A stretch of DNA of 64,000 bases from assembly GCF_029278565.1 (NCBI RefSeq), contig NZ_CP119559.1:1302001-1366000 (forward strand), in the 5' to 3' direction. The notes beneath the pieces are model-generated. The model was not told where the DNA came from. It did not search any database and saw only the letters and a list, made by a program, of their open reading frames with translations. Of the stretch, positions 28,143 through 52,345 are shown piece after piece. Origin of the DNA: Haloarcula halophila (GTDB lineage: Archaea; Halobacteriota; Halobacteria; Halobacteriales; Haloarculaceae). The position numbers were made by a program, and so were the translations under genes. Positions within the stretch are counted from its first letter, which is position 1. Every line of letters starts with the position of its first letter.

Positions 28143-28217
28143 GTCGACCCGGGCCAGAGAGTGACCGACATCGCTCGATGAAACTGCCGACGACCGATTC
28201 TATACTCTTCCCTAAGT

Positions 28218-28225
28218 TTTAAATT
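28218..28225 (+). promoter_or_regulatory. TATA box of the pilus-like operon
   Basis: TTTAAATT within an AT-rich stretch (28216-28229), 29 bases before ATG 28251. It predicts a leaderless seven-gene mRNA. Confidence 0.65.
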
Positions 28226-28250
28226 AAATCGGTAGACAAACCTCTCCAAG

Positions 28251-30482
28251 ATGAGCAATCGAGGGGGTACCGAGGGAGGAGGGAGACGGTCAGTTCCGTC
28301 GCCGGTTCCGCCCGACGACACCGACGCCTGGTACGCGCCGTCGGTCCGCGAGCAAGACGAACTCTATCCTGGCGTCGTCGTCACCATCCGCTCGCGCGAG
28401 GACGGGTTCGGCTACGAGGTCCGTGAACCGGTCCTCGCTGCCGGGGAAGCCGAGGCACTCGCGACGGTCGAGAGCTATTTCGAGACGGCCGAACGACAGC
28501 GGCCACGGACCAGAGAAGGTGCTGTCGAGCGGATGGAACGGGGATTCGACCCGAAACACCAGCAGGTGATCGACCGGCTCGTCGACTGCTCGCCGGCCGG
28601 CCGTCGCCGCATCGAATACCACGCACTCTGTTCGCTGGCGTGTCTCGGCGAACTGACGCCGTACGCACTGGACGACCGGATCGACGTCGCCGATATCGAC
28701 GACGACGGGGTCGTCGTCCACACCGCCGACTACGCGCCCGCCGAGACCGACCTCGACACCGATCCGTCCTACATCGATCGGTTCACCAGCGAGCGCGTCG
28801 AGCGCCACACCGTCGAGTTTCACGAGTTCGAGATCCCGGTCGTCGTCTACCGCGAACACCTACTGGGGTCGGACCCGTTCACCACGAAATACGCCGTCAG
28901 AGAACCGTCGCTACTGCCCGGCGACGAGACACTCATCAAGGAGTGTAAAGAGCGCATCTGGGAGACAAACGTCGACGGACTCGTCGAGGACCGCGTCGAG
29001 TTCGTCCGCGAGCGTGCCCGATCACTGCTCGCACGACAGTTGACGGTCCGAAACACGACCGAGTGGCTCGATGCGGCCAGATACAGACTGCGGGCCGCCC
29101 TGGCGGAGTTCGACCTGGCGGTCCCACCGGTCGACAGTCGGTTCTCCGACGGCCGCCTCGACGACCTGCTGTACTACGTCCTCCGTGATCTGGTCGGATA
29201 CGGACAACTGACAGTTCCGATCCGTGATCCGACGCTCGAAGACATCGAAGCGAACCGCGTCGGCGAACGGATCAAAGTGCTCCCCCGGGCGGACCTGGGC
29301 CACGACGGCCGGGTCCCGACGAACCTCCAGTTCGACTCCGAACAGGGGTTCGTCAACGTCGTCACCCAGTTGGCGACTGACGACGGGACCGAACTCAACG
29401 CTTCGAACCCGAGTGCGAAGGTCAACGTCGATCCCGACAGCGAAGCCGTCCACGACGCCGACGAGACGGTCCGCTGTGCGGTCGCGCTCCCGACGATCAG
29501 CGAGGGCGGCCCACACATCTCGATCCGCAAGCAGTCAGCCGACGCGATGACACCAGTCGATCTGATCGAGCGGGACTCGCTGCCGACGGAACTGGTCGCG
29601 CTGCTGTGGCTGTTCTATGAATCCCACGGCGTCGTCCTGTTTTCGGGTGCAACCGGTGTCGGGAAGACGACGTTGATGAACGCCCACATGCCGTTCATCC
29701 CCTACCGTGACCGTCCGATCAGTATGGATGAAGGGTCACGGGAGGTCCGGATTCCACACGAAACTGGGGTGTCGCTGACGACACGGGACCACGAGCGCGA
29801 CCACCGGCGCGTGACGATGGCTGACCTGATGACACAATGCAACTACCTCAACCCGGATATCGAGGTTATCGCCGAGATCAACACGCCAGCGTCGTTCGAG
29901 ACGTTCGCAGAGGCGCTCAACACCGGCCACGGCGTCATCGGGACGACACACGCCGACGACATCGAGACGCTCGTCAATCGCAGCATCGAGAAGGGAGTCC
30001 CGACCTATCTGTTGGAAGAGATCGATCTGGTCGTGTTTCCGCGGCATATCGACGGTGACCGCTACGTCGGCGAGGTGGTCGAGTTCGTCGACGAGCCACA
30101 GAGCGGCGACCGGGCCGGCACGATCCGGAAGGACGGCACCGTCCTCCACTACAATACGGTCTGCTGGCGAGAGTCCGACGGGAGCTACGCCGTCGGCTAC
30201 GACCACCCGTCACTCGGCGACGAGGACCGCCAGGTCCGGACCGAGGTGTTCGAACGACTCGGGCGACTCAGAGACGAACCCGTCGAAACCGTCGAGGATC
30301 GGTTCCACCGCCGCCATCGGTACGTCAAGTATCTGGTTCGGGAAGGCTGTCGGGACTTCGACGACCTGTTCGGCGTCCTGGCCGATCTCCAGACCAACGA
30401 GGCAGCGACCGTCGAGCGACTGCGCCGACAGGCGGAGGCGGACGGCGCTGGAGTCGAGACAGGGGTGAGCGATGACGACTGA
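28251..30482 (+). CDS. Type II/IV secretion system ATPase (archaeal PilB/GspE family)
   Basis: A 743-residue cytosolic motor ATPase for a type IV pilus-like system. About 300 residues of N-terminal regulatory sequence precede the core. Walker A is GATGVGKTT (466-473 region). The Walker B region is EVIAEINTPASFETFAEALN (538-556), where typical family members have a GEVRG-like box; the His box THADD (566-570) is present. It overlaps the next gene by 11 bases. In haloarchaea such ATPases pair with a TadC-like membrane protein to assemble adhesion or unknown pili. No flagellin or chemotaxis genes lie nearby, which argues against an archaellum FlaI. Confidence 0.9.
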   Translation: MSNRGGTEGGGRRSVPSPVPPDDTDAWYAPSVREQDELYPGVVVTIRSREDGFGYEVREPVLAAGEAEALATVESYFETAERQRPRTREGAVERMERGFDPKHQQVIDRLVDCSPAGRRRIEYHALCSLACLGELTPYALDDRIDVADIDDDGVVVHTADYAPAETDLDTDPSYIDRFTSERVERHTVEFHEFEIPVVVYREHLLGSDPFTTKYAVREPSLLPGDETLIKECKERIWETNVDGLVEDRVEFVRERARSLLARQLTVRNTTEWLDAARYRLRAALAEFDLAVPPVDSRFSDGRLDDLLYYVLRDLVGYGQLTVPIRDPTLEDIEANRVGERIKVLPRADLGHDGRVPTNLQFDSEQGFVNVVTQLATDDGTELNASNPSAKVNVDPDSEAVHDADETVRCAVALPTISEGGPHISIRKQSADAMTPVDLIERDSLPTELVALLWLFYESHGVVLFSGATGVGKTTLMNAHMPFIPYRDRPISMDEGSREVRIPHETGVSLTTRDHERDHRRVTMADLMTQCNYLNPDIEVIAEINTPASFETFAEALNTGHGVIGTTHADDIETLVNRSIEKGVPTYLLEEIDLVVFPRHIDGDRYVGEVVEFVDEPQSGDRAGTIRKDGTVLHYNTVCWRESDGSYAVGYDHPSLGDEDRQVRTEVFERLGRLRDEPVETVEDRFHRRHRYVKYLVREGCRDFDDLFGVLADLQTNEAATVERLRRQAEADGAGVETGVSDDD

Positions 30483-32358
30483 TGGGACGCTCGGACTGCT
30501 CGACCGAGGATTGTATGCCCTGTTCGGGCATCACGCGGACGATACTCGCCACGTCCGTACGCGAGAGCTGTATCGAGAAGCGAACCCGGACGTCGACTTC
30601 GGTCTGTACGTGGCACGGCTGTACGCACTCTCCTGGATACTCTGTCTGGCGAGTGGGGCGGTGGCCGCATCGGCTGTCGCACTGCTCCCGCCGGCAACCG
30701 TCGACGCGGTCACGACGGCCGGGAGCAACAGCCTCCCGGTACTCGATCGTGTACAGCTGCCCGCAGTCCCGCGTGGAGTCGCTGCCGCCGGTGTCGGGCT
30801 CGTCGTCGGGACCCTCGCACGCTGGGTCGTCTTCAGGCTGGGCGGTCGATACCTCGCCTGGGTCGCCACGGCACGGCGGGCCGACATCGAGTCGACACTG
30901 CCGGGAGCGGTCCGGTACCTCCGCGTCCTCGCTGCGGGGGCACAGGATCAGCGAGCGATGTTGCGAGCGGTCGCCCAACAGGACGCGTACGGCGAGACCG
31001 CCGTCGCGTTCCGACGCGCGCTCAACCGGGCCGCGCTGACCGGGAGCCTCGACGAAGGGTTAGAGCGAGTGGCGAGCGAAACTCCGTCTCGGGACCTCCT
31101 CGCGCCGTTCCTGCTGAAGTTCCGGGAGCACGCGAACCAGAGCGCCGAAGCGCTGGAGGGATATCTGGAGATGGAAGGACGGCTCCTCTCACACCAACAG
31201 AGTCGGCGCCACGAGCGAGCGACGGGGTATCTCGAACTGCTCGCGGAACTGTTCGTCGTCTTGCTGATCCTCCCCGCACTCGTCGTCCTCATCGTGACGG
31301 TGATGAGCGTCCTCGCGCCGGGGCTGTCGAGAGCTGTTTCGACCCCGGTGGGGTCGGTCTCGACACAGACCGTCGTCGTCGCAGGCAGTGCCGTCTTCGT
31401 CCTCGCCGCCGGCGCACTCTCGGCCGCGGTCGTCGTCACGCTCCGGCCACACAACGCGGCAGCACCGTCGTACAGCCGTCCGGAGAACCTCGTCTCGATC
31501 CTGGCGACTGCGCCGTCGAACCCGGCAAGTGCGACGGCCGTCTGTCTCCCGATCGGCGGACCGATCGCAGCCGGGTTGTGGGCGCTGGGGTACGGGCCGT
31601 TGAACGTCGCCATACTCACGTACGCGGCCGTCGGCCTCCCGATCGGAGTGGTCTCGATCCGCCGTGCGAGACGAGACGACGCCAAAGACCGAGAGATACA
31701 GGACTTCGTCCACGCAGTCGCGGGGCACGTGGCACTCGGGCGGCCGTTCCCGGACGCAGTCAAACGTGTCGCACAGGACATCCAACTCGGTGCGCTCGCC
31801 GACGACGTCAGGGCGCTTGCCTTCACGCTGGACCTGGGCGACAGCCCCGCCGACGCCTCGGCGGACCGCCGTGCCGCGGCGCTCGATCAGTTCGTCGACC
31901 GGGTCGGGACGCCGCTGGCCGAGCAGACGGTCGGGCTCGTCGTCGGTGCCCTCGACGCCGGCAGCGACGCCGAGGAGATATTCGAGACGCTCCAGACGGA
32001 GATCGGGAAACTCTATCACCAGCGGAAGGCGCTCCGGTCGGCGCTGCTCGTCTACGTCGCCGTCGGCTGGACGACCGCGCTCCTCGTCGTCTGTATCACC
32101 GTGGCGGTAAACGTCTACGTCCTCGACCGGTTCGCACAGCTGTCGGCGGTCACCGGCGGACAGAGCATCGCGTTGAACCCGAGAGCGATCGATCCTGCCA
32201 GTGCTCGTCGCCGGTTCTATCTCGTCACGCAGGCCACGATGGTCTCCTGTGGCTGGTTCGCTGGAACCGCCAGTCGGGGTGTCTACGAGGCGTTGCTGCA
32301 CTCCAGTCTGCTGGTCGTGTTGGGCTACGTCGTCTACGCTGGGGTGGGACTACTGTGA
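30472..32358 (+). CDS. Type II secretion F-domain membrane protein (PilC/TadC-like)
   Basis: A 628-residue polytopic inner-membrane platform with two GspF-type domains. Each has a cytoplasmic helical part (PGAVRYLRVLAAGAQDQRAM; FVHAVAGHVALGRPFPDAV) followed by hydrophobic segments. The double-domain layout matches haloarchaeal PilC. It overlaps the ATPase start side by 11 bases and the next pilin-like gene by 4, so the order ATPase-platform-pilins is fixed. The platform passes ATPase motion to the growing filament. Confidence 0.88.
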   Translation: MTTDGTLGLLDRGLYALFGHHADDTRHVRTRELYREANPDVDFGLYVARLYALSWILCLASGAVAASAVALLPPATVDAVTTAGSNSLPVLDRVQLPAVPRGVAAAGVGLVVGTLARWVVFRLGGRYLAWVATARRADIESTLPGAVRYLRVLAAGAQDQRAMLRAVAQQDAYGETAVAFRRALNRAALTGSLDEGLERVASETPSRDLLAPFLLKFREHANQSAEALEGYLEMEGRLLSHQQSRRHERATGYLELLAELFVVLLILPALVVLIVTVMSVLAPGLSRAVSTPVGSVSTQTVVVAGSAVFVLAAGALSAAVVVTLRPHNAAAPSYSRPENLVSILATAPSNPASATAVCLPIGGPIAAGLWALGYGPLNVAILTYAAVGLPIGVVSIRRARRDDAKDREIQDFVHAVAGHVALGRPFPDAVKRVAQDIQLGALADDVRALAFTLDLGDSPADASADRRAAALDQFVDRVGTPLAEQTVGLVVGALDAGSDAEEIFETLQTEIGKLYHQRKALRSALLVYVAVGWTTALLVVCITVAVNVYVLDRFAQLSAVTGGQSIALNPRAIDPASARRRFYLVTQATMVSCGWFAGTASRGVYEALLHSSLLVVLGYVVYAGVGLL

Positions 32359-33068
32359 GGCGAGCACAGTCACACGTCGTCGGGGTCGTCCTCCTGTTGG
32401 GGTTGACCCACGTCGCGCTCGGCGGCCTCACCGCGACGGTCGGCAGCATCGTCGACGGACAGACGGCCACGGCCGACGCGACGCGGGTCGCGGATGCGTT
32501 TCAAAACGGGCTAGAACCCAGTGAACGGACCGGCCAGGGGACAACACAGCTCCGATTCACCGACGGACACGTCGGGAGCGCCGAGCGGGAACTACGCGTG
32601 CTAAACGCCAGCGGTGTCGTCCGTGTCGTCCCGATAGACGCGCTCGTCTACACCACGTCAGGCGCCCGAACAGCGTTCGTCGGCGGCGCCGTGGTTCGGG
32701 GTCGACCCGACGAGGCGTGGCTCGTTCGCGAGCCGTCGCTGACCGTCACACGGACGAAAGACACGTTAGTCGTCGGGGCACCACGGCTCAACGCCAGCGG
32801 CGGTGCGGTCGCCGGCGATACCGTGACCGCACGGCTCCGGACGAACGTCAGCCACACTCGGGAGCGGTTCCCCAGGGCCGATTATCGGATCGCGATCGAG
32901 ACGGCGACACCCGAGGCGTTCGGGCGGTACTTCCGCCAGTTGGGACTGGCGACGCGGACCCGCGATATCGACGGTGACGGGACGCCGAGCGTCGTCGCTA
33001 GCGTCGGCGGACGGGAGACCGTCTATCTCGTCGTCCACGACATGCGAACGGAGGTAGCACATGGATAG
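32355..33068 (+). CDS. Pilin-like protein 1 of the operon
   Basis: A 237-residue protein that begins with GTG overlapping the platform stop. The N-terminus reads RRAQSHVVGVVLLLGLTH: two arginines, an Ala-Gln site suited to prepilin peptidase, then one hydrophobic helix, as in the haloarchaeal type IV pilin N-terminal domain. The rest is an extracellular beta-rich domain with several N-x-S/T sites. It is probably the major or a minor pseudopilin. It resembles haloarchaeal DUF7289-type proteins, from memory of such operons. Confidence 0.75.
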   Translation: MRRAQSHVVGVVLLLGLTHVALGGLTATVGSIVDGQTATADATRVADAFQNGLEPSERTGQGTTQLRFTDGHVGSAERELRVLNASGVVRVVPIDALVYTTSGARTAFVGGAVVRGRPDEAWLVREPSLTVTRTKDTLVVGAPRLNASGGAVAGDTVTARLRTNVSHTRERFPRADYRIAIETATPEAFGRYFRQLGLATRTRDIDGDGTPSVVASVGGRETVYLVVHDMRTEVAHG

Positions 33069-33507
33069 TCGTGGACTCAGTACGGTCGTCGAGAAGCTAC
33101 TGGGGCTCGGTATCGTCGTCCTCTACATCGGGCTCCTGACGACGACGTTGTACGGCGGCGTGGTGCCTGAGTATCAGTCCGCAGTGGGGAGTGAACTCGG
33201 AGAGCGGACGCTAGTGCAGTCGGCGGCACGGATCGAAGCGGCGGTGCCACCGCGAGCGCGGACCGTGACCGCCAGCGTCCAGGTCGATCTGCCGGCGACC
33301 ATCGACGGAGCCGCCTACACGATCCGGACAGACGGTGATTCGCTCGTCCTCGACCACCCGGACCCGTCGATCGACGGGCGTGTCCAGCCGGTCCTTCCGA
33401 GCCGGGTCGACAGCCTCGACGGAGCCTGGGAGAGCGGAGAGCAGACGACCGTCAGGGTAACCGGCGGGCGGGGAAACGTGACGGTGACACTGGAGGGGGA
33501 TTCATGA
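33061..33507 (+). CDS. Pilin-like protein 2 of the operon
   Basis: A 148-residue protein with N-terminus MDSRGLSTVVEKLLGLGIVV, matching a short basic leader, Gly-Leu cleavage site and a single helix; a Glu sits in the first turn of the helix (STVVE), as in classical pilins. The remainder is a small beta domain (VTASVQVDLPATIDGAAYTI; TTVRVTGGRGNVTVTLEG). It overlaps the previous gene by eight bases and the next by four. Confidence 0.75.
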   Translation: MDSRGLSTVVEKLLGLGIVVLYIGLLTTTLYGGVVPEYQSAVGSELGERTLVQSAARIEAAVPPRARTVTASVQVDLPATIDGAAYTIRTDGDSLVLDHPDPSIDGRVQPVLPSRVDSLDGAWESGEQTTVRVTGGRGNVTVTLEGDS

Positions 33508-34205
33508 GGGAATCACTGGACAGGCCCGCGGCGGAACGAGCACAGACCTCACTCCCGTCGCTCGCAGTCGCTCTGGTGTTGTTGACCGTCGTAACCGGAC
33601 TGGCACTGGCAGTCGCGGACGGAACGCTTTCCGGACACGATCGAACAGCCGACGAACGGCGACTGGCCGTGACGACTGCCGATCGGCTCGTGGCTCCGGC
33701 GGGACCGCTGGCGGCACGCGCCAACGTCCTCAACGCGACACGGGTCGCCACATTCGACCGGGGACGACTCGTTCGATCGGTTCCGCCGGCGCGGAATACC
33801 ACCGTCGCAGTCTCGCTGAACGGCTCACGGCTGGCAGCGACTGGAACGACGAGCGGGGGAACGACGGTTCGGCGGATCGTCCTCGTCGAGCGTCGTGAGA
33901 CACGGACGGTCACCCCGAACGTAACCGGGAGCGGTTCGGTGACGTTGCCCCGCCGGACCGACAGCGCGACGATCACGGTTTCGACACCGCCTGGGACGGA
34001 ACTCTGGACGGTCAGAGCCGACGAGCGGGTCGTCCTGCACAACCGGAGCGGGCTAAACGGGACCTTCACCGTGTCGCTGGTCCCCTACGAAACGACGGAA
34101 CTGCGTTTCGAGGGAGCCGGAGTGGTCCCAGCAGGCTCGGTGACTGTAAAGTACGCACCGCCCCGGACGACGAAGGCGACGCTGGTGGTGACCGTCGATG
34201 CGTAG
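33504..34205 (+). CDS. Pilin-like protein 3 of the operon
   Basis: A 233-residue protein. A basic leader with ERAQTSLPSLAVALVLLTVV gives an Ala-Gln candidate cleavage site followed by a hydrophobic helix. The large external domain is rich in Thr, Arg and Val with many N-x-T sequons (for example FDRG, NTTVAVSLNGS, NVTGSGS). Overlaps of four and eight bases join it to its neighbours. Confidence 0.75.
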   Translation: MRESLDRPAAERAQTSLPSLAVALVLLTVVTGLALAVADGTLSGHDRTADERRLAVTTADRLVAPAGPLAARANVLNATRVATFDRGRLVRSVPPARNTTVAVSLNGSRLAATGTTSGGTTVRRIVLVERRETRTVTPNVTGSGSVTLPRRTDSATITVSTPPGTELWTVRADERVVLHNRSGLNGTFTVSLVPYETTELRFEGAGVVPAGSVTVKYAPPRTTKATLVVTVDA

Positions 34206-34602
34206 GGGACAGCTACCGCTGTCGGTACTCGAAGTGGCTATCGGCGTCGTGGTGATCCTGAGCGTCACGCTCGGCTTCGCGCTTGGACCACCGGCGGCGG
34301 ACGCCCGCGGCCCACAACTGGAAGCGTACGCTACCGACGTGGCGACGGTACTGGCAAACGAACAGCCACGCCACGGTGGGTCGACACGGCTCCGGGAAGT
34401 CGTCGCGAGCGAGGCAGCGTTCGATCGGGAACGCGGAGCGCTCGAACGACGCGTCGAACGGATTCTCCCCGGAAACGTTCTCTTTCGGATCGAGACACCA
34501 CATGGGAGCGTCGGCCTCGCCCAGCCACGACAGACGGTGACAGGGACGGCTGTCGTCCCGACTGGCGCCGGACAGGTCAGCGTCGAGGTGTGGTACGCGT
34601 GA
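34198..34602 (+). CDS. Pilin-like protein 4 of the operon
   Basis: A 134-residue protein starting MRRGQLPLSVLEVAIGVVVI: two arginines, Gly-Gln cleavage site, then a hydrophobic helix containing a Glu. The external part is short and mixed (VLANEQPRHGGSTRLREVV; VSVEVWYA at the end). It is the smallest of the set and could be a tip or priming pseudopilin. It overlaps neighbours by eight and four bases. Confidence 0.75.
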   Translation: MRRGQLPLSVLEVAIGVVVILSVTLGFALGPPAADARGPQLEAYATDVATVLANEQPRHGGSTRLREVVASEAAFDRERGALERRVERILPGNVLFRIETPHGSVGLAQPRQTVTGTAVVPTGAGQVSVEVWYA

Positions 34603-35117
34603 GCGAACGCGGACAGCTCGTCCTCGTCGCCGCGGTACTGGTCGCGATCGCGATCGCGCTACTGGTGCTTGCGGCGTTACAACTCGGCTATCACGGGGAC
34701 GTCCATGCGACAGCCGACGACGACGATCCGACCGCCGCGACGCTACGCGTCCTCGAACGGTCGGTGCCAGCAGCCAGTCGAGGCATTCCACGGGACTACA
34801 GCTGGTCCCGCCGCAGTGCCGCAGTCAGTGCCGTCCGCGGGACCCTCGCACCGACGCTCGATCGGCTCCGGACAGCAGGCGTCCGGGAGGGCGTAGTTCG
34901 GAACGTGAGCTACAACGAGACGGCCGCGACAGCCTGGCAACGTTCGAACTGTGCCAGCGGTCCGAACCGTGCGTTCGGACCGTGTCGGACCGACCGGGGC
35001 GTCGCTGTCCAGGAGCGCACCGGACGAACCCACGTGTTGGCGGTCGGGTTCGACGTGACAGTCACCACACAGCGGGGTCGGACCGCTGTCACCGTCGTCG
35101 TCCCGGTGACTGGCTGA
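34599..35117 (+). CDS. Pilin-like protein 5 of the operon
   Basis: A 172-residue protein. GTG 34599 (in GTGA with the previous stop) gives VSERGQLVLVAAVLVAIAIA: basic leader, Gly-Gln site and hydrophobic helix. The external domain holds three cysteines in CASGPNRAFGPC and nearby residues, so a disulfide is possible. It is the last gene of the operon; the regulator gene begins 56 bases later. Confidence 0.75.
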   Translation: MSERGQLVLVAAVLVAIAIALLVLAALQLGYHGDVHATADDDDPTAATLRVLERSVPAASRGIPRDYSWSRRSAAVSAVRGTLAPTLDRLRTAGVREGVVRNVSYNETAATAWQRSNCASGPNRAFGPCRTDRGVAVQERTGRTHVLAVGFDVTVTTQRGRTAVTVVVPVTG

Positions 35118-35163: not shown

Positions 35164-35173
35164 TGTCGTAGTA

Positions 35174-35971
35174 ATGACACGGGATGCAGTTCACCGGGAC
35201 ATCCAATTTCTGACCGGCTCACCCGCACGGTTCGCCGTGGTCTCCGCGCTGGCCGAGTCGCCGGCGCGTCCCTGTGAACTGTGTGAACGGATCGACGCGA
35301 CGCGGACGACGATCCAACGGATCTTAGCTGGCTGTAGCGACCGGCAGTGGGTCCGGAAAGTCGACGGGGACTACCGGTTGACGCTAACCGGTCGACGGAT
35401 GTACGAACGGTACGCCGCACTGGTGAACGAGGCCGAGCGAGCCAGGGAGTTCGGCCCGCTTGCGCAGTATCTCGGACCGATCGGCGACGAACTCCCCGAT
35501 ATCGTCTTCGACGCCGGAAGGATAACCGTCAGCAGCGAACAGACGCCGCTCGCACCCGTCAACCGGCTCACCGACTGGTTTGCCGACGCCGAAGGGCCGG
35601 TCAAGACGATCTCCCCGATCGTGGCAGCGACGTTCAACGAGGCTGCTGCAACGTTGTTGGAACGAGGCGTCCGGATCGAATCGATCATCGACGACGGCGT
35701 CTTGGAGCGTTCCGAACGGGAGTTCCGCGAGGAACTGGAACGGGGGATCGACCACGAATCGATCGAGTTCTACGTCCACGAATCGTCGCTCGACTTCGGG
35801 CTCGTCGTCGACGACCGCGGGTGCTGTCTGGGTGCCTACGACGACGGGAACAACCTCCGTGTGGCATTGGTCGTCGAGGACCCCGTCGCACGGGAGTGGG
35901 CGATCGACCAGTTCGAACAGTACCGTGCGGCTGCGACGCCGCTCGGGACCGTGTTGTCGGCACCGGAGTGA
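35174..35971 (+). CDS. Helix-turn-helix transcriptional regulator (FilR1/DUF1724-like)
   Basis: A 265-residue protein. Residues 10-85 form a winged helix (FAVVSALAESPARPCELCERI, TTIQRILAGCSDRQWVRKV). The C-terminal 150 residues match the FilR1-type effector domain of archaeal regulators (PVKTISPIVAATFNEAA, RGVRIESIIDDGVLER, IEFYVHESSLDFGLVVDD). It lies 56 bases after the pilus-like operon in the same direction but has its own TATA-like element and a palindrome, so it may regulate the operon and itself. The ligand is unknown. Confidence 0.82.
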   Translation: MTRDAVHRDIQFLTGSPARFAVVSALAESPARPCELCERIDATRTTIQRILAGCSDRQWVRKVDGDYRLTLTGRRMYERYAALVNEAERAREFGPLAQYLGPIGDELPDIVFDAGRITVSSEQTPLAPVNRLTDWFADAEGPVKTISPIVAATFNEAAATLLERGVRIESIIDDGVLERSEREFREELERGIDHESIEFYVHESSLDFGLVVDDRGCCLGAYDDGNNLRVALVVEDPVAREWAIDQFEQYRAAATPLGTVLSAPE

Positions 35972-36235: not shown

Positions 36236-36469
36236 ATGTCACCACCCGGACGGGAAATCCAGTACACTGAATCGGATGTCATCGAGGTGTTCAAGCAGCG
36301 TGAGGATTACGCTGAGCCACTGACCGCGTCGGAGATCGCCGATCGATTGGGTTGTTCTCGCCGAACGGCACTGAACAAGTTACACGCACTCGAAGACGAG
36401 ACTGATATCACGAGCAAGAAAGTCGGCGGGCGCTCGCGTGTCTGGTGGATTCCCGTTCGGACCGACTAG
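36236..36469 (+). CDS. Small helix-turn-helix DNA-binding protein
   Basis: A 77-residue single winged-helix domain: SDVIEVFKQREDYAEPLTAS, then EIADRLGCSRRTALNKLHAL (helix-turn-helix), then SKKVGGRSRVWWIPV (wing). This form is widespread in haloarchaea and acts as a simple transcription factor. Its start is fixed by the TATA box. Two strong inverted repeats lie just upstream and may be its own binding sites. It converges with the gene at 36466 and overlaps it by four bases. Confidence 0.82.
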   Translation: MSPPGREIQYTESDVIEVFKQREDYAEPLTASEIADRLGCSRRTALNKLHALEDETDITSKKVGGRSRVWWIPVRTD

Positions 36470-37008
36470 AGGTCCCACTCCTCGGCACGCTCCTGTGCCT
36501 CCGTACGAGCCTGTTCGCGGATCGCTTCGATCTTCGCTTCGTTCTCCAGGAAGGCCTCGACCGCTCCCTGTGTCGACTCCTCGGTCGAGTCCGCTCTCTC
36601 GTCCGTCGAAGCGCGTCGCCGCTCCGTCGGTGCGGCCCGTCGTGTGCTCCGTGCCAGGGCTGGGTCCCCGGCGAGTCGCTCCGCGGCCATCCCGGGCGGA
36701 ATCACGTCGTCCCCGGAGTCGGACAGTACCGACGACTCGGTCGCGTACATCGTGACGTGGTACGGCCCGGGAACGGCCAGGTCCGCGAGCGCCGGCGGGC
36801 CGCCCCGCTCGGTACCGGTGTGGTAGGCGCGTGTCGGGACGCCGTCTTCGAACGTGACGACACCCCGCCCGTCGGCGTCGAGCAGAAGCGCGTCCTGGGA
36901 TTCAAAGACCGTGTAGCCGGTAAAGCCCCGGTCGAGCGCCTCGGCGAGTGTGTCGCGCGGGTCAGCGACGACGCGTGACTTCTCCAAGCGACCGCGGGAC
37001 AGGTTCAT
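36466..37008 (-). CDS. Hypothetical partner of the MinD-like ATPase
   Basis: A 180-residue soluble protein. The first 90 residues look globular (RGFTGYTVFESQDALLLDAD, GVVTFEDGVPTRAYHTGTE, YHVTMYATES). The rest is polar with a long charged helix at the end (GAVEAFLENEAKIEAIREQA). Its ATG overlaps the minD stop by four bases, so the two are made together. A role as effector or cargo adaptor of the ATPase is inferred from this coupling only. Confidence 0.72.
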   Translation of the reverse strand: MNLSRGRLEKSRVVADPRDTLAEALDRGFTGYTVFESQDALLLDADGRGVVTFEDGVPTRAYHTGTERGGPPALADLAVPGPYHVTMYATESSVLSDSGDDVIPPGMAAERLAGDPALARSTRRAAPTERRRASTDERADSTEESTQGAVEAFLENEAKIEAIREQARTEAQERAEEWDL

Positions 37009-37772
37009 GGCGGTTCGGGGATGACGGCACTGCGGACCCGATCGGCCACAGTCTCCGAGGGAACCGGTTGTACGGAGAGTCCGTCTGCAACACGGCGAAA
37101 CGCGCCGGCGGCGTCACACTCCGGTGCGTGAGCGAGTAGTGGCCGGCCGGCGCGGCGGGCCTCGCGGGCCTGCTCGCTCTCGGGCACTGTCGCCAGGGTC
37201 GGTCCGTCGAAATACCGCTCGGTCTTCTCGGCGATCCCCTCGATGTCCTCGTCGGGTCGGACCTTGTTGAACAGGACACCGGCGACACCGGTCCCGTAGG
37301 AACTCGCGTACTCCTGAACCTTCAGACCGTCCGAGATCGCGGGGATCGTCGGCTGGAGGACGACGACGATCCGATCGGCCATCACGATCGGGAGGACCGC
37401 AGCGCGACTATCCAGTGCCGGTGGGGAGTCCAACAGCAGGACGTCGGTGTCGGTCGCGAGCGTCGCGACGGCCTCACGGAGTCGTTTCGGATCGGCGTCA
37501 CGGAACCCGTCGAGGCTCGTTCCGCAGGGGACGACCCTCATCCCGAAGCGGTCGTAGGTGGCCTCACCGATCGGGCGGTCGCCGGCGAGGACGTCGTGGA
37601 GCGTCGTCTCCACGTCCGAGAGGCCCGCGTGAAACAGCAGGTTAGCCATCCCAGTGTCGGCGTCGACGACGGTCACGTCGTACCGGTCGGCCAGTGCCAT
37701 CCCCAGGGCGACCGTGCTGGTGGTCTTCCCGGTCCCACCCTTCCCGCTGGCGACGGCGAAGACTTCGACCAT
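37005..37772 (-). CDS. MinD/ParA-family ATPase
   Basis: A 255-residue P-loop protein with the deviant Walker A KGGTGKTTST (residues 11-20 region) including the signature Lys, VVDADTGMANLLF, VLLLDSPPALDS as Walker B and VLFNKVRPDED. A C-terminal amphipathic membrane helix as in MinD is not obvious. Start ATG 37772 follows AAGTTTTTTG (37797-37806) on this strand, so it has its own promoter although cobQ ends only 58 bases upstream. It may position a cellular structure; haloarchaea carry several paralogues with different jobs. Confidence 0.85.
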   Translation of the reverse strand: MVEVFAVASGKGGTGKTTSTVALGMALADRYDVTVVDADTGMANLLFHAGLSDVETTLHDVLAGDRPIGEATYDRFGMRVVPCGTSLDGFRDADPKRLREAVATLATDTDVLLLDSPPALDSRAAVLPIVMADRIVVVLQPTIPAISDGLKVQEYASSYGTGVAGVLFNKVRPDEDIEGIAEKTERYFDGPTLATVPESEQAREARRAGRPLLAHAPECDAAGAFRRVADGLSVQPVPSETVADRVRSAVIPEPP

Positions 37773-37830
37773 GGCGGTTCTGGGTTCGCGCTCGCACAAA
37801 AAACTTCGCAGGTTTTGCGGCTGAAAAAAC

Positions 37831-39309
37831 TCAGTCGATACCCAACGGCCCGAGGTCGACGTGGTCGACGACGAGCGCAGCCGCCCGGTCGTAGGCGTTG
37901 TCCCGATCACAGTCAAGCTCCAGTTGATACTCCGTTCCGGCCGTTTCGATCGTATTTTTCACGAAGGCAACTCTCGGTTCGTCGTTGGCGAAGATGTCGT
38001 GGAGGTAGGTTCCGAGGACCGTATCCGTCGCTGCCCCGGTCGAGTCGAACGGCCGGGAGACGTCGGCGGTCGGCGTCGTCTGACCCATGTGGATCTCGTA
38101 TCCTTCGACGACGCCGGTCGCACCGGCTAATGGACCGACCCCGTCGAGACGGCGGGTGACACGTTCGACGGTCTTCTCTGGCGAGAAGGTCGTCTCGACG
38201 GGGAGCAACCCCAGTCCTTCGACTGTCTCGCTGTCGCCGGTCCCCTCGATGTCGGCGTTGTGGATACGATCGCCGAGCATCTGGTACCCGCCACAGAGCC
38301 CGACAATGGGGCCGTCGAACGCCGAGAGCGCCGTGTCGAAGCCGGCCTCCCGGAGTGCGAGCAGGTCGTCGACCGTGTTCTTGCTCCCGGGAAGGACAAC
38401 CGCGTCGGCGTCGGTCAGCGAGGCCGAGAGCGGGAGGTAGGCGACACGGACGCCCGGTGTCGCGGCGAGTGGCTGGAGATCGGTGAAGTTCGAGATGTGG
38501 GGCAACCGTGGGACGGCGACGGTAACCGCCTCCGCGTCGGCGACGCCGTCGTCGGTTCCCTCGATCGCCTGCTGCCCGACCGGCGGGAGTGCGACGCTGT
38601 CTTCCTCCGGCAGTCCGGGGTCGTCGTGGGGGAGCACGCCAAGGACCGGGACGCCCGTTCGGTCCTCGAAGGCGTCGAGCCCGGGCGCGAGCAGCGATCG
38701 GTCGCCTCTGAACTTCGTGATCACCGCGCCGACGACTCGGTCCCTGATATCCGTCGGCAGCAACTCCAGTGTACCGACGAGCGAGGCGAAGACGCCGCCG
38801 CGCTCGATGTCGGCCACGAGGAGGACGTCGGCGTCGGCAAAGCGGGCCGTCTCGACGTTTGCCAGGTCACGGTCGTGGAGGTTGATCTCGGCGATCGATC
38901 CCGCCCCCTCGGCGACGATCACGTCGTGGTCGGCCGCGAGTCGACGGTGGGCCGCGCGGGCGGCCCCGAGCGCGTCGTCCCAGTATCGATCGTAGTACTG
39001 TCCCGCCGGAACGTCCGCGACGGCCTCGCCGTCGACGACGAGTTGGGACTCCCCGTCCCCTCGCGGTTTCAACAGGACAGGGTTGTGGTCCGTCTCCGGG
39101 GGGACGCGGGCCGCCCGGGCCTGGACGTACTGGGAGACGCCGATCTCGCCACCGGGTGTCGCACGGGCGTTCGTGCTCATGTTCTGGGCCTTGTACGGCG
39201 CGACCGATCGACCACGGTCGGCCAACACACGGCAGAGTCCCGCCGCTACAGTGCTCTTTCCCACGTGGGAGGCTGTTCCGGCCACCAGTATCGTCCGCGC
39301 GTCCGGCAT
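37831..39309 (-). CDS. cobQ: Cobyric acid synthase
   Basis: A 492-residue glutamine-dependent amidase that amidates positions b, d, e and g of adenosylcobyrinic acid diamide. The ATP domain opens with [20 protein letters not shown] and [28 protein letters not shown] follows. The class I glutaminase-like half has the nucleophile Cys in [10 protein letters not shown] (about residue 340) and the His in LGTYLHDIF. Last cobalamin gene of the operon, 47 bases after cobA. Also called cbiP. Confidence 0.93.
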
Positions 39310-50990: not shown

Positions 50991-52271
50991 TCAGGCGACG
51001 CCCGTCCCAGCGTAGCCGTCGATCTCGTCACCGTCCGTATCGTTCAGGAACTCGATATCGATGGTGCCACTGTCGATGTCGTCGAGGTACTTGATGTCGC
51101 TGCTGCTTTCCTCCAAGTAGACCAGTTCCGGGTTCCCGTCGCCGTCGACATCGGCGGCAGTCGCAGTCGCCTTCATCGCCGACGGTGTCGACCCGCCACT
51201 CACGTCGCTACTGCCGATCTCGTCCCCGCTCGTGTCGTTGGTGAGGACGACATCGTTCCCGCCGTCGACGCTGGCGACCCGGGGGGTCCCGTCGCCGTCG
51301 AAGTCCGCCATCGTGCCGGCACCGATGCCGGTACTGGAACCGAGGCTCGTCGACATACTGTGAACACTGCCACCGGGTTCCAGATACTGGAGCGTCTGAC
51401 TGCCGTCGGCGAAGACGAGTTCGTCGGTCCCGTCACCGTCGATGTCACCGGGCCCGACGACCGCGTTCGCGCCGTCACCGCCTGGATCGGTTGCGACGAC
51501 GGTCACGCCGCTACTGGGTGTCGAGCGGTAGATCGCCGACGGACTCGTGTCGTTGACGAAAAACACCGACGGCGGGCTCCCGTTCCAAGAGCCAGTGGCC
51601 AGCCGCGTCTTGTCCTCCGTCCCGTCGGGCACGGCTGAGTTGGTCGTGACGGTCGTCACGTCTCCCGTCGCGTCGACGAGTTTGACCGCGCCGCTGCTGT
51701 TGACGTACGGGACCCCGGGTGCGCCGTCGCCGGTGACGTCTGCCTTTGGTGGGCCGATGGCTTCGACGTCGCTGGCGTTCGGGACAACGCTGACGTTGCC
51801 GCCGTCGCCGGAGATCGTGGTGATCCCAGTCGCGTTCCCCGTGAAGACGGTTCCACCGGGGAACCGACCGGACGCGATGATCTCGGCGATATCGAACCGC
51901 GCGAGGATATACGAAGAGGGTTCGCCCTTGGACTCGGTCCAGACGATCCGTAGCGTCTCGTCCTGGGGGAAGACGACGACCGACTGGCCGGCCGCCAGCG
52001 TCCGACCGTGTAACACGTCGGGGTCGGCGACGCCACGGAGCGTGACCCGGTCACCGTCGATCTCCGGTCCGGCCTCGTGGACGAGTTCGTAGGCGCCGTC
52101 GGTCCGTTCGAGGTCGAAGGCCGTCTCCGGGGCGGGCGTCTGTTCGTCGGTCAACTGGAAGACGAACACCGACGAGAGCCCGACCAGCAGGACCACGATA
52201 CCGAGCAGGAGAACGCCGCCGACGACCGGCGAGACGCCACGCTCACCGTTGGAAGACGGCCCGGAGACCAT
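50991..52271 (-). CDS. Secreted pilin-like protein with FG-GAP-like repeats
   Basis: A 426-residue protein. The N-terminus NGERGVSPVVGGVLLLGIVV then VLLVGLSSVFVF is a haloarchaeal type IV pilin signature (Arg-Gly cleavage site, hydrophobic helix). The external part contains at least four repeats with a calcium-loop pattern: ADVTGDGAPGVPYV, GDIDGDGTDELVF, ADFDGDGTPRVASV and ADVDGDGNPELVYL, as in FG-GAP/integrin beta-propellers. ATG 52271 (MVSGPSSNGERG) is chosen. It is convergent with ftsZ2 and 74 bases downstream of ncsA. It may be an adhesin-type filament subunit. Confidence 0.78.
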   Translation of the reverse strand: MVSGPSSNGERGVSPVVGGVLLLGIVVLLVGLSSVFVFQLTDEQTPAPETAFDLERTDGAYELVHEAGPEIDGDRVTLRGVADPDVLHGRTLAAGQSVVVFPQDETLRIVWTESKGEPSSYILARFDIAEIIASGRFPGGTVFTGNATGITTISGDGGNVSVVPNASDVEAIGPPKADVTGDGAPGVPYVNSSGAVKLVDATGDVTTVTTNSAVPDGTEDKTRLATGSWNGSPPSVFFVNDTSPSAIYRSTPSSGVTVVATDPGGDGANAVVGPGDIDGDGTDELVFADGSQTLQYLEPGGSVHSMSTSLGSSTGIGAGTMADFDGDGTPRVASVDGGNDVVLTNDTSGDEIGSSDVSGGSTPSAMKATATAADVDGDGNPELVYLEESSSDIKYLDDIDSGTIDIEFLNDTDGDEIDGYAGTGVA

Positions 52272-52345
52272 CGTAACAGCGAGACGATAGCACTCGGACA
52301 CTCATATTAGCTGCGGGACAGTATCGGAGTTGACAACGGAGCGGC

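Follow-up and report, generated by a model that had tools for sequence, protein, structure and literature searches.

The closest described systems are the pilB1-C1 operon of Haloferax volcanii, the pil-2 operon of Halobacterium salinarum, and the type IV pilus of subclade 4C. In H. volcanii, a pilB1::tn strain and a pilB1-C1 deletion strain were both less adherent (Legerme and Pohlschroder 2019; PMC6491452). Adhesion was restored by pilB1-C1 in trans, and pilB3-C3 was also able to substitute for it; the pilB3-C3 deletion was not rescued by PilB1-C1, which is believed not to assemble PilA1-6 (PMC6491452). In Hbt. salinarum, pil-2 was described as seven co-transcribed ORFs of 6.9 kb that occur in haloarchaea only (Losensky et al. 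2015; PMC4292770). The ATPase gene of pil-2 was transcribed at an 8.5-fold higher level in attached cells, with an internal standard as the reference, and FlaFind flagged only three prepilins in the operon (PMC4292770). Makarova et al. (2016; PMC4858521) describe subclade 4C as a halobacteria-specific type IV pilus, the pilins of which comprise a signature family (arCOG02911), three families common to another haloarchaeal system, and one PilA-like family (arCOG06296) proposed as the major pilin.

We analyzed a set of seven genes in a stretch of Haloarcula DNA of 64,000 nucleotides (hereafter, the window). We are highly confident that these genes represent the Haloarcula-type orthologue of the pilB1-C1/pil-2 operon of subclade 4C, working in the manner proposed below. 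The system is thus already known: the striking-looking operon, which an earlier note on this DNA had taken as new, is the Haloarcula copy of a published adhesion pilus. The features of the locus are as follows.

28217..28229, + strand: TATA-like promoter element TTTTAAATTAAAT, found by direct sequence reading
28251..30482, + strand: PilB1-type assembly ATPase (VirB11/T2SSE), 743 aa; Pfam T2SSE, 2.6e-21
30472..32358, + strand: PilC1-type platform protein (TadC/PilC), 628 aa; Pfam T2SSF twice, 4.6e-18
32355..33068, + strand: pilin-like DUF7289 protein, 237 aa, GTG start; Pfam 1.5e-54
33061..33507, + strand: pilin-like DUF7266 protein, 148 aa; Pfam 1.2e-55
33504..34205, + strand: pilin-like DUF7263 protein, 233 aa; Pfam 8.7e-80
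34198..34602, + strand: pilin-like DUF7262 protein, 134 aa; Pfam 7.5e-54
34590 or 34599..35117, + strand: pilin-like DUF7261 protein, GTG start; Pfam 9e-63

The ORF coordinates agree with the original description of a seven-gene, fully overlapping operon: all genes lie on the + strand between 28251 and 35117, a span of 6867 bases, and every junction overlaps, by 11, 4, 8, 4, 8, and 4 or 13 bases in order. The last value depends on the GTG start assigned to the DUF7261 gene (4 bases for 34599 and 13 bases for 34590). The T2SSE and T2SSF matches fall in adjoining, overlapping genes, the ATPase gene being directly followed by the platform gene, and the presence of two T2SSF domains in the platform protein was seen both with Pfam and in a T2SSF search of the genome itself. 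The center of TTTTAAATTAAAT is located about 28 bases upstream of the pilB1 ATG, a position that would be compatible with a leaderless archaeal transcript. The Haloferax orthologue also has an AT-rich element upstream at a similar distance.

The connection to H. volcanii and Hbt. salinarum was drawn through primer matches, locus layout, and named relatives. Among the primers published for H. volcanii pilB1 and pilC1 (HVO_0620/0619; PMC6491452), the pilB1-start primer ATGCCTACCCAAGGC has a perfect match at the start of the operon-type ATPase gene in three Haloferax species (Haloferax prahovense, H. mucosum, and H. marisrubri). In the first and third of these, the pilC1-end primer aligns to the end of the platform gene with a single mismatch, and its site falls in the overlap with the next pilin gene.

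Conservation of the locus was examined in a class-wide sample of 292 genomes, in which DUF7263 was matched in 116. The complete seven-gene set was present in 34 of 40 sampled whole-genome loci fetched around DUF7263 matches. A scan with the ATPase alignment found it in 71 of 80 named haloarchaeal loci, almost always in the order seen here; most of the remaining nine are cut short where the contig or locus ends. Across the sampled loci, the same junctions show the start-stop overlaps again. The conserved gene set and the recurring overlaps indicate that the operon is not a product of chance, and the gene order, on which the earlier note had staked its reading, is indeed kept across haloarchaea. 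Some operons are eroded: in Haloplanus ruber (L115) and the MAG QH_7_66_36 (L158), the ATPase gene occurs without the rest downstream, and in L074 (G014) only the last three pilin genes are present. The platform gene is divided into two ORFs in L070, L108, L119, and L138.

A gene for a FilR1/HVO_A0261-type regulator (35171-35971, + strand) is located directly 3' of the operon, and such a neighbor is kept in most Haloarcula/Halomicroarcula loci as well as in one Halomicrobium and two Halopenitus loci. The region 36466-39309 (- strand) encodes an archaeal MinD-like ATPase, cobyric acid synthase, and a 180-aa protein that belongs to no known family. These three genes are repeatedly found next to the operon, either convergent downstream or co-directional upstream. 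The MinD-like and 180-aa genes were considered as functional partners and rejected: the 180-aa gene was found in 179 of the 292 genomes, compared to 116 for DUF7263, and often tens of kb away from the operon. Their recurrence therefore looks like an ancestral neighborhood rather than a functional connection. The window also encodes, at 50994-52301 (- strand), a predicted pilin in which FG-GAP repeats are fused to a Pilin_N N-terminus; it would be a modular pilin that may carry an adhesin-like domain.

In the alignments, all five families of small proteins have R-(G/A), then Q, L, V, or a similar residue, and then a hydrophobic helix, which is the pattern of a class III signal. The genome contains one A24 prepilin peptidase match. 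These signals, together with the family matches, bear out the view of the locus as an operon of type IV pilus-like character that encodes five prepilin-like proteins. In the AlphaFold models of the DUF7262 and DUF7261 proteins (pLDDT 88.8 and 89.2, respectively), an N-terminal helix is followed by an alpha/beta domain. The helix demanded by a pilin reading is thus present in both modeled proteins, and the description of the small domains as mostly beta does not apply to these two. The subunits had also been called sequon-rich, which is appropriate for the DUF7263 and DUF7289 proteins (six and three sequons, respectively) but not for those of DUF7266 (one), DUF7262 (none), and DUF7261 (two). 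No PDB match at E <= 0.001 was obtained when the DUF7262 and DUF7261 models were used in fold searches; the best VIA Z values (7.9 and 6.0, respectively) are within the noise range of the tool, and no pilin was listed, a result that does not constitute evidence against a pilin fold. The alignment of DUF7261 revealed a conserved pair of cysteines (121 and 132).

The five families differ in distribution and in their resemblance to PilA. In a phylum-wide sample of 247 genomes, DUF7289 is present in 189, among them methanogens, as should be expected of a shared minor pilin. The DUF7289 protein, which also gave a weak Pilin_N match (0.00097), is probably the signature minor pilin arCOG02911. Strong matches to DUF7261 are mainly haloarchaeal, and among the control genomes, only that of H. 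volcanii contained DUF7263. When the DUF7266 profile was compared with the PDB, all three chains listed were archaeal PilA-type pilins, although the matches were weak (E 0.089-2.1). A profile comparison with six PilA proteins of the same genome (hhalign) gave probabilities of 65% for DUF7266 and 67% for DUF7289 over the helix, and no PilA-like similarity for DUF7263, DUF7262, and DUF7261. From these comparisons, DUF7266 is probably the best candidate for the major pilin, and it probably corresponds to arCOG06296. A search of the available literature for DUF7261, DUF7262, DUF7263, DUF7266, and DUF7289 found no paper naming these DUF numbers; the five unnamed Pfam families are now tied to a published adhesion-pilus system.

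On this basis, we propose the following working of the system. As judged from their signals, the five prepilins would insert into the membrane, where their short charged leaders, located in front of the hydrophobic helix, would be clipped by PibD, the only A24 peptidase found in this genome. By analogy with the respective families, a PilB1 hexamer would hydrolyze ATP and drive PilC1 to extract the mature subunits from the membrane, and the subunits would build a helical filament held by the N-terminal helices. The DUF7266 protein, with its PilA-like N-terminus, would probably be the main subunit and the DUF7289 protein a conserved minor pilin, and those of DUF7263, DUF7262, and DUF7261 may be minor subunits starting, capping, or decorating the filament. 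The filament would help surface attachment; the genetic evidence for this is limited to H. volcanii pilB1/pilC1, and we infer the adhesive role in Haloarcula by analogy. The idea of a filament with defined parts is in line with the main/minor subunit model that has also been published (PMC4858521). The accompanying claim of "not just a surface adhesin" is not supported, since surface adhesion is the sole demonstrated role of the orthologous system (PMC6491452).

A variant within this explanation, differing on the major subunit, is that the operon supplies no more than minor or priming pilins and that a PilA-type pilin from elsewhere in the genome makes up most of the filament. Outside the operon, the genome has at least 17 Pilin_N matches that exceed the family cut-off, and the fact that PilB3-C3 works in place of PilB1-C1 would also fit such a supply. 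In contrast, the failure of PilB1-C1 to rescue the pilB3-C3 deletion, the view that it does not assemble PilA1-6, and the PilA-like N-terminus of DUF7266 itself argue against this variant. Codon adaptation was tried as a means of finding the major pilin. The values for the five genes are low (0.48-0.53) and below those of the background genes of the window, which favors the variant; however, the PilA genes of the genome are equally variable (0.34-0.60), and the measure was rejected as uninformative. We regard an external major pilin as possible but rather improbable. Two pairs of identically scoring pilin matches with equal spacing were also observed near the ends of the main contig (G000:C1 26534/3013219 and 42195/3028883), which suggests that the contig ends are redundant.

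The operon-encoded pilus that we favor would be driven by a motor with an altered core. The motifs were evaluated in an alignment of 25 orthologues, in an alignment of the paralogues of the same genome, and by counting motifs in 80 named homologues. The PilB1-type ATPase has about 290 additional N-terminal residues, and its motifs are Walker A GATGVGKT, an altered Walker B AEIN, and the His box TTHA. NYLNPD is present in all 80 named homologues and is followed by AEIN in 64 and AEVN in 16, whereas the other five assembly ATPases of the genome have GE[VI]R, preceded in four of the five by LR..P(D/E). The Asp box is also changed (DEGSRE versus EDT.E in the paralogues); the features retained are Walker A, the glutamate of Walker B (E542), and the His box. 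The PDB relatives of the ATPase are AfGspE, CpaF, and FlaI, and the aligned AfGspE and CpaF keep GEVR. The unusual Walker B region (AEINTP) singled out by the earlier note is therefore real and fixed family-wide, all 80 homologues having AE[IV]N. The invariance of the motif across the family would point to an altered but working motor and argue against decay. ATPase activity is not to be assumed, because the motif arginines that the paralogues have ahead of and within the Walker B region are lost.

The family-wide replacement of LR..P(D/E)...GE[VI]R with NYLNPD...AE[IV]N is apparently unreported; no mention of a remodeled ATPase core was found in the literature on this pilus system, in those parts of it that were available. 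One could suppose that PilB1 ATPases are a mechanistically distinct motor subfamily working with unusual alpha/beta minor pilins, in which ATP hydrolysis would be coordinated differently, for example as a slower, partner-dependent, or assembly-only motor, but we consider this supposition unlikely. With its fixed change, the ATPase core is a well-defined target for biochemical work on the motor in a haloarchaeon that is amenable to genetics.

It was also considered whether the products of the operon form a pseudopilus-like secretion machine, in which a short five-subunit filament pushes a substrate out through the S-layer. Type II secretion systems have five pseudopilins, and the five single-copy, translationally coupled pilin-like subunits, none of which is obviously abundant, recall them; in addition, the predicted alpha/beta folds of two subunits are unlike known PilA filaments. 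However, no type II secretion components were detected among the seven genes (Pfam) or among the neighbors checked, and no substrate or secretion gene could be tied to the operon in the same set. The adhesion phenotype of the orthologous system (PMC6491452) and the ability of PilB3-C3, the builder of PilA pili, to replace PilB1-C1 also argue for a surface pilus, making a secretion machine very unlikely. Finally, an initial assignment of the operon to the PilB4-type system of H. volcanii (HVO_1160), whose ATPase is also described as bearing additional domains at both the N- and the C-terminus and as accompanied by a multi-pilin set (PMC4858521), was overturned by the matches of the pilB1 and pilC1 primers to the operon-type ATPase/platform pair in Haloferax, and it is now scarcely credible, as another ATPase locus of the genome (with DUF7288, DUF7261-like, and DUF7289 proteins) fits PilB4 better.

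The genome contains further loci with pilin-like genes. Multi-pilin sets with DUF7287, DUF7288, DUF7289, and DUF7261-like proteins are located at C1 1159-1184 kb (L166 and L167). One of them adjoins an 832-aa ATPase and its platform, and this set is likely a PilB4-type system. At C1 1236-1247 kb (L170), a diverged FlaI-like ATPase is followed by a 616-aa protein without a Pfam match and then by DUF7285 and DUF7284 proteins with prepilin-type N-termini, a possible further filament system.

As for the archaellum, the ATPase and platform proteins are distantly homologous to FlaI and FlaJ and scored only 137 bits against the FlaI equivalog cut-off of 550 and 45 bits against the FlaJ equivalog cut-off of 550, respectively. 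Consistent with the statement that the operon carries no archaellin or chemotaxis genes, Pfam found none among the seven. The PilA/PilB3-C3 adhesion pili share the machinery families and, in DUF7266 and DUF7289, a PilA-like N-terminus; unlike in those pili, the pilin genes here are part of the operon rather than located in trans, and the identity of the ATPase to the genome's other assembly ATPases is only 21-26%. The likeness to subclade 4C, drawn by description and pilin count, lies in the five pilins including one PilA-like protein; the available extract of that description does not mention a changed Walker B region (PMC4858521). The pil-2 operon (OE1347R-OE1332R) shares the seven ORFs, the length of about 6.9 kb, the set of ATPase, platform, and prepilins, and the restriction to haloarchaea. 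It differs in that pilC2 has an in-frame stop in strain R1 and in that three prepilins were flagged there, compared to the five signals found here. The H. volcanii pilB1-C1 operon (HVO_0620, HVO_0619, and HVO_0618 onward; PMC6491452) belongs to another genus. By the primer matches in Haloferax relatives, its ATPase and platform are the same as those found here, and pilC1 likewise overlaps the first pilin gene by 4 bases.
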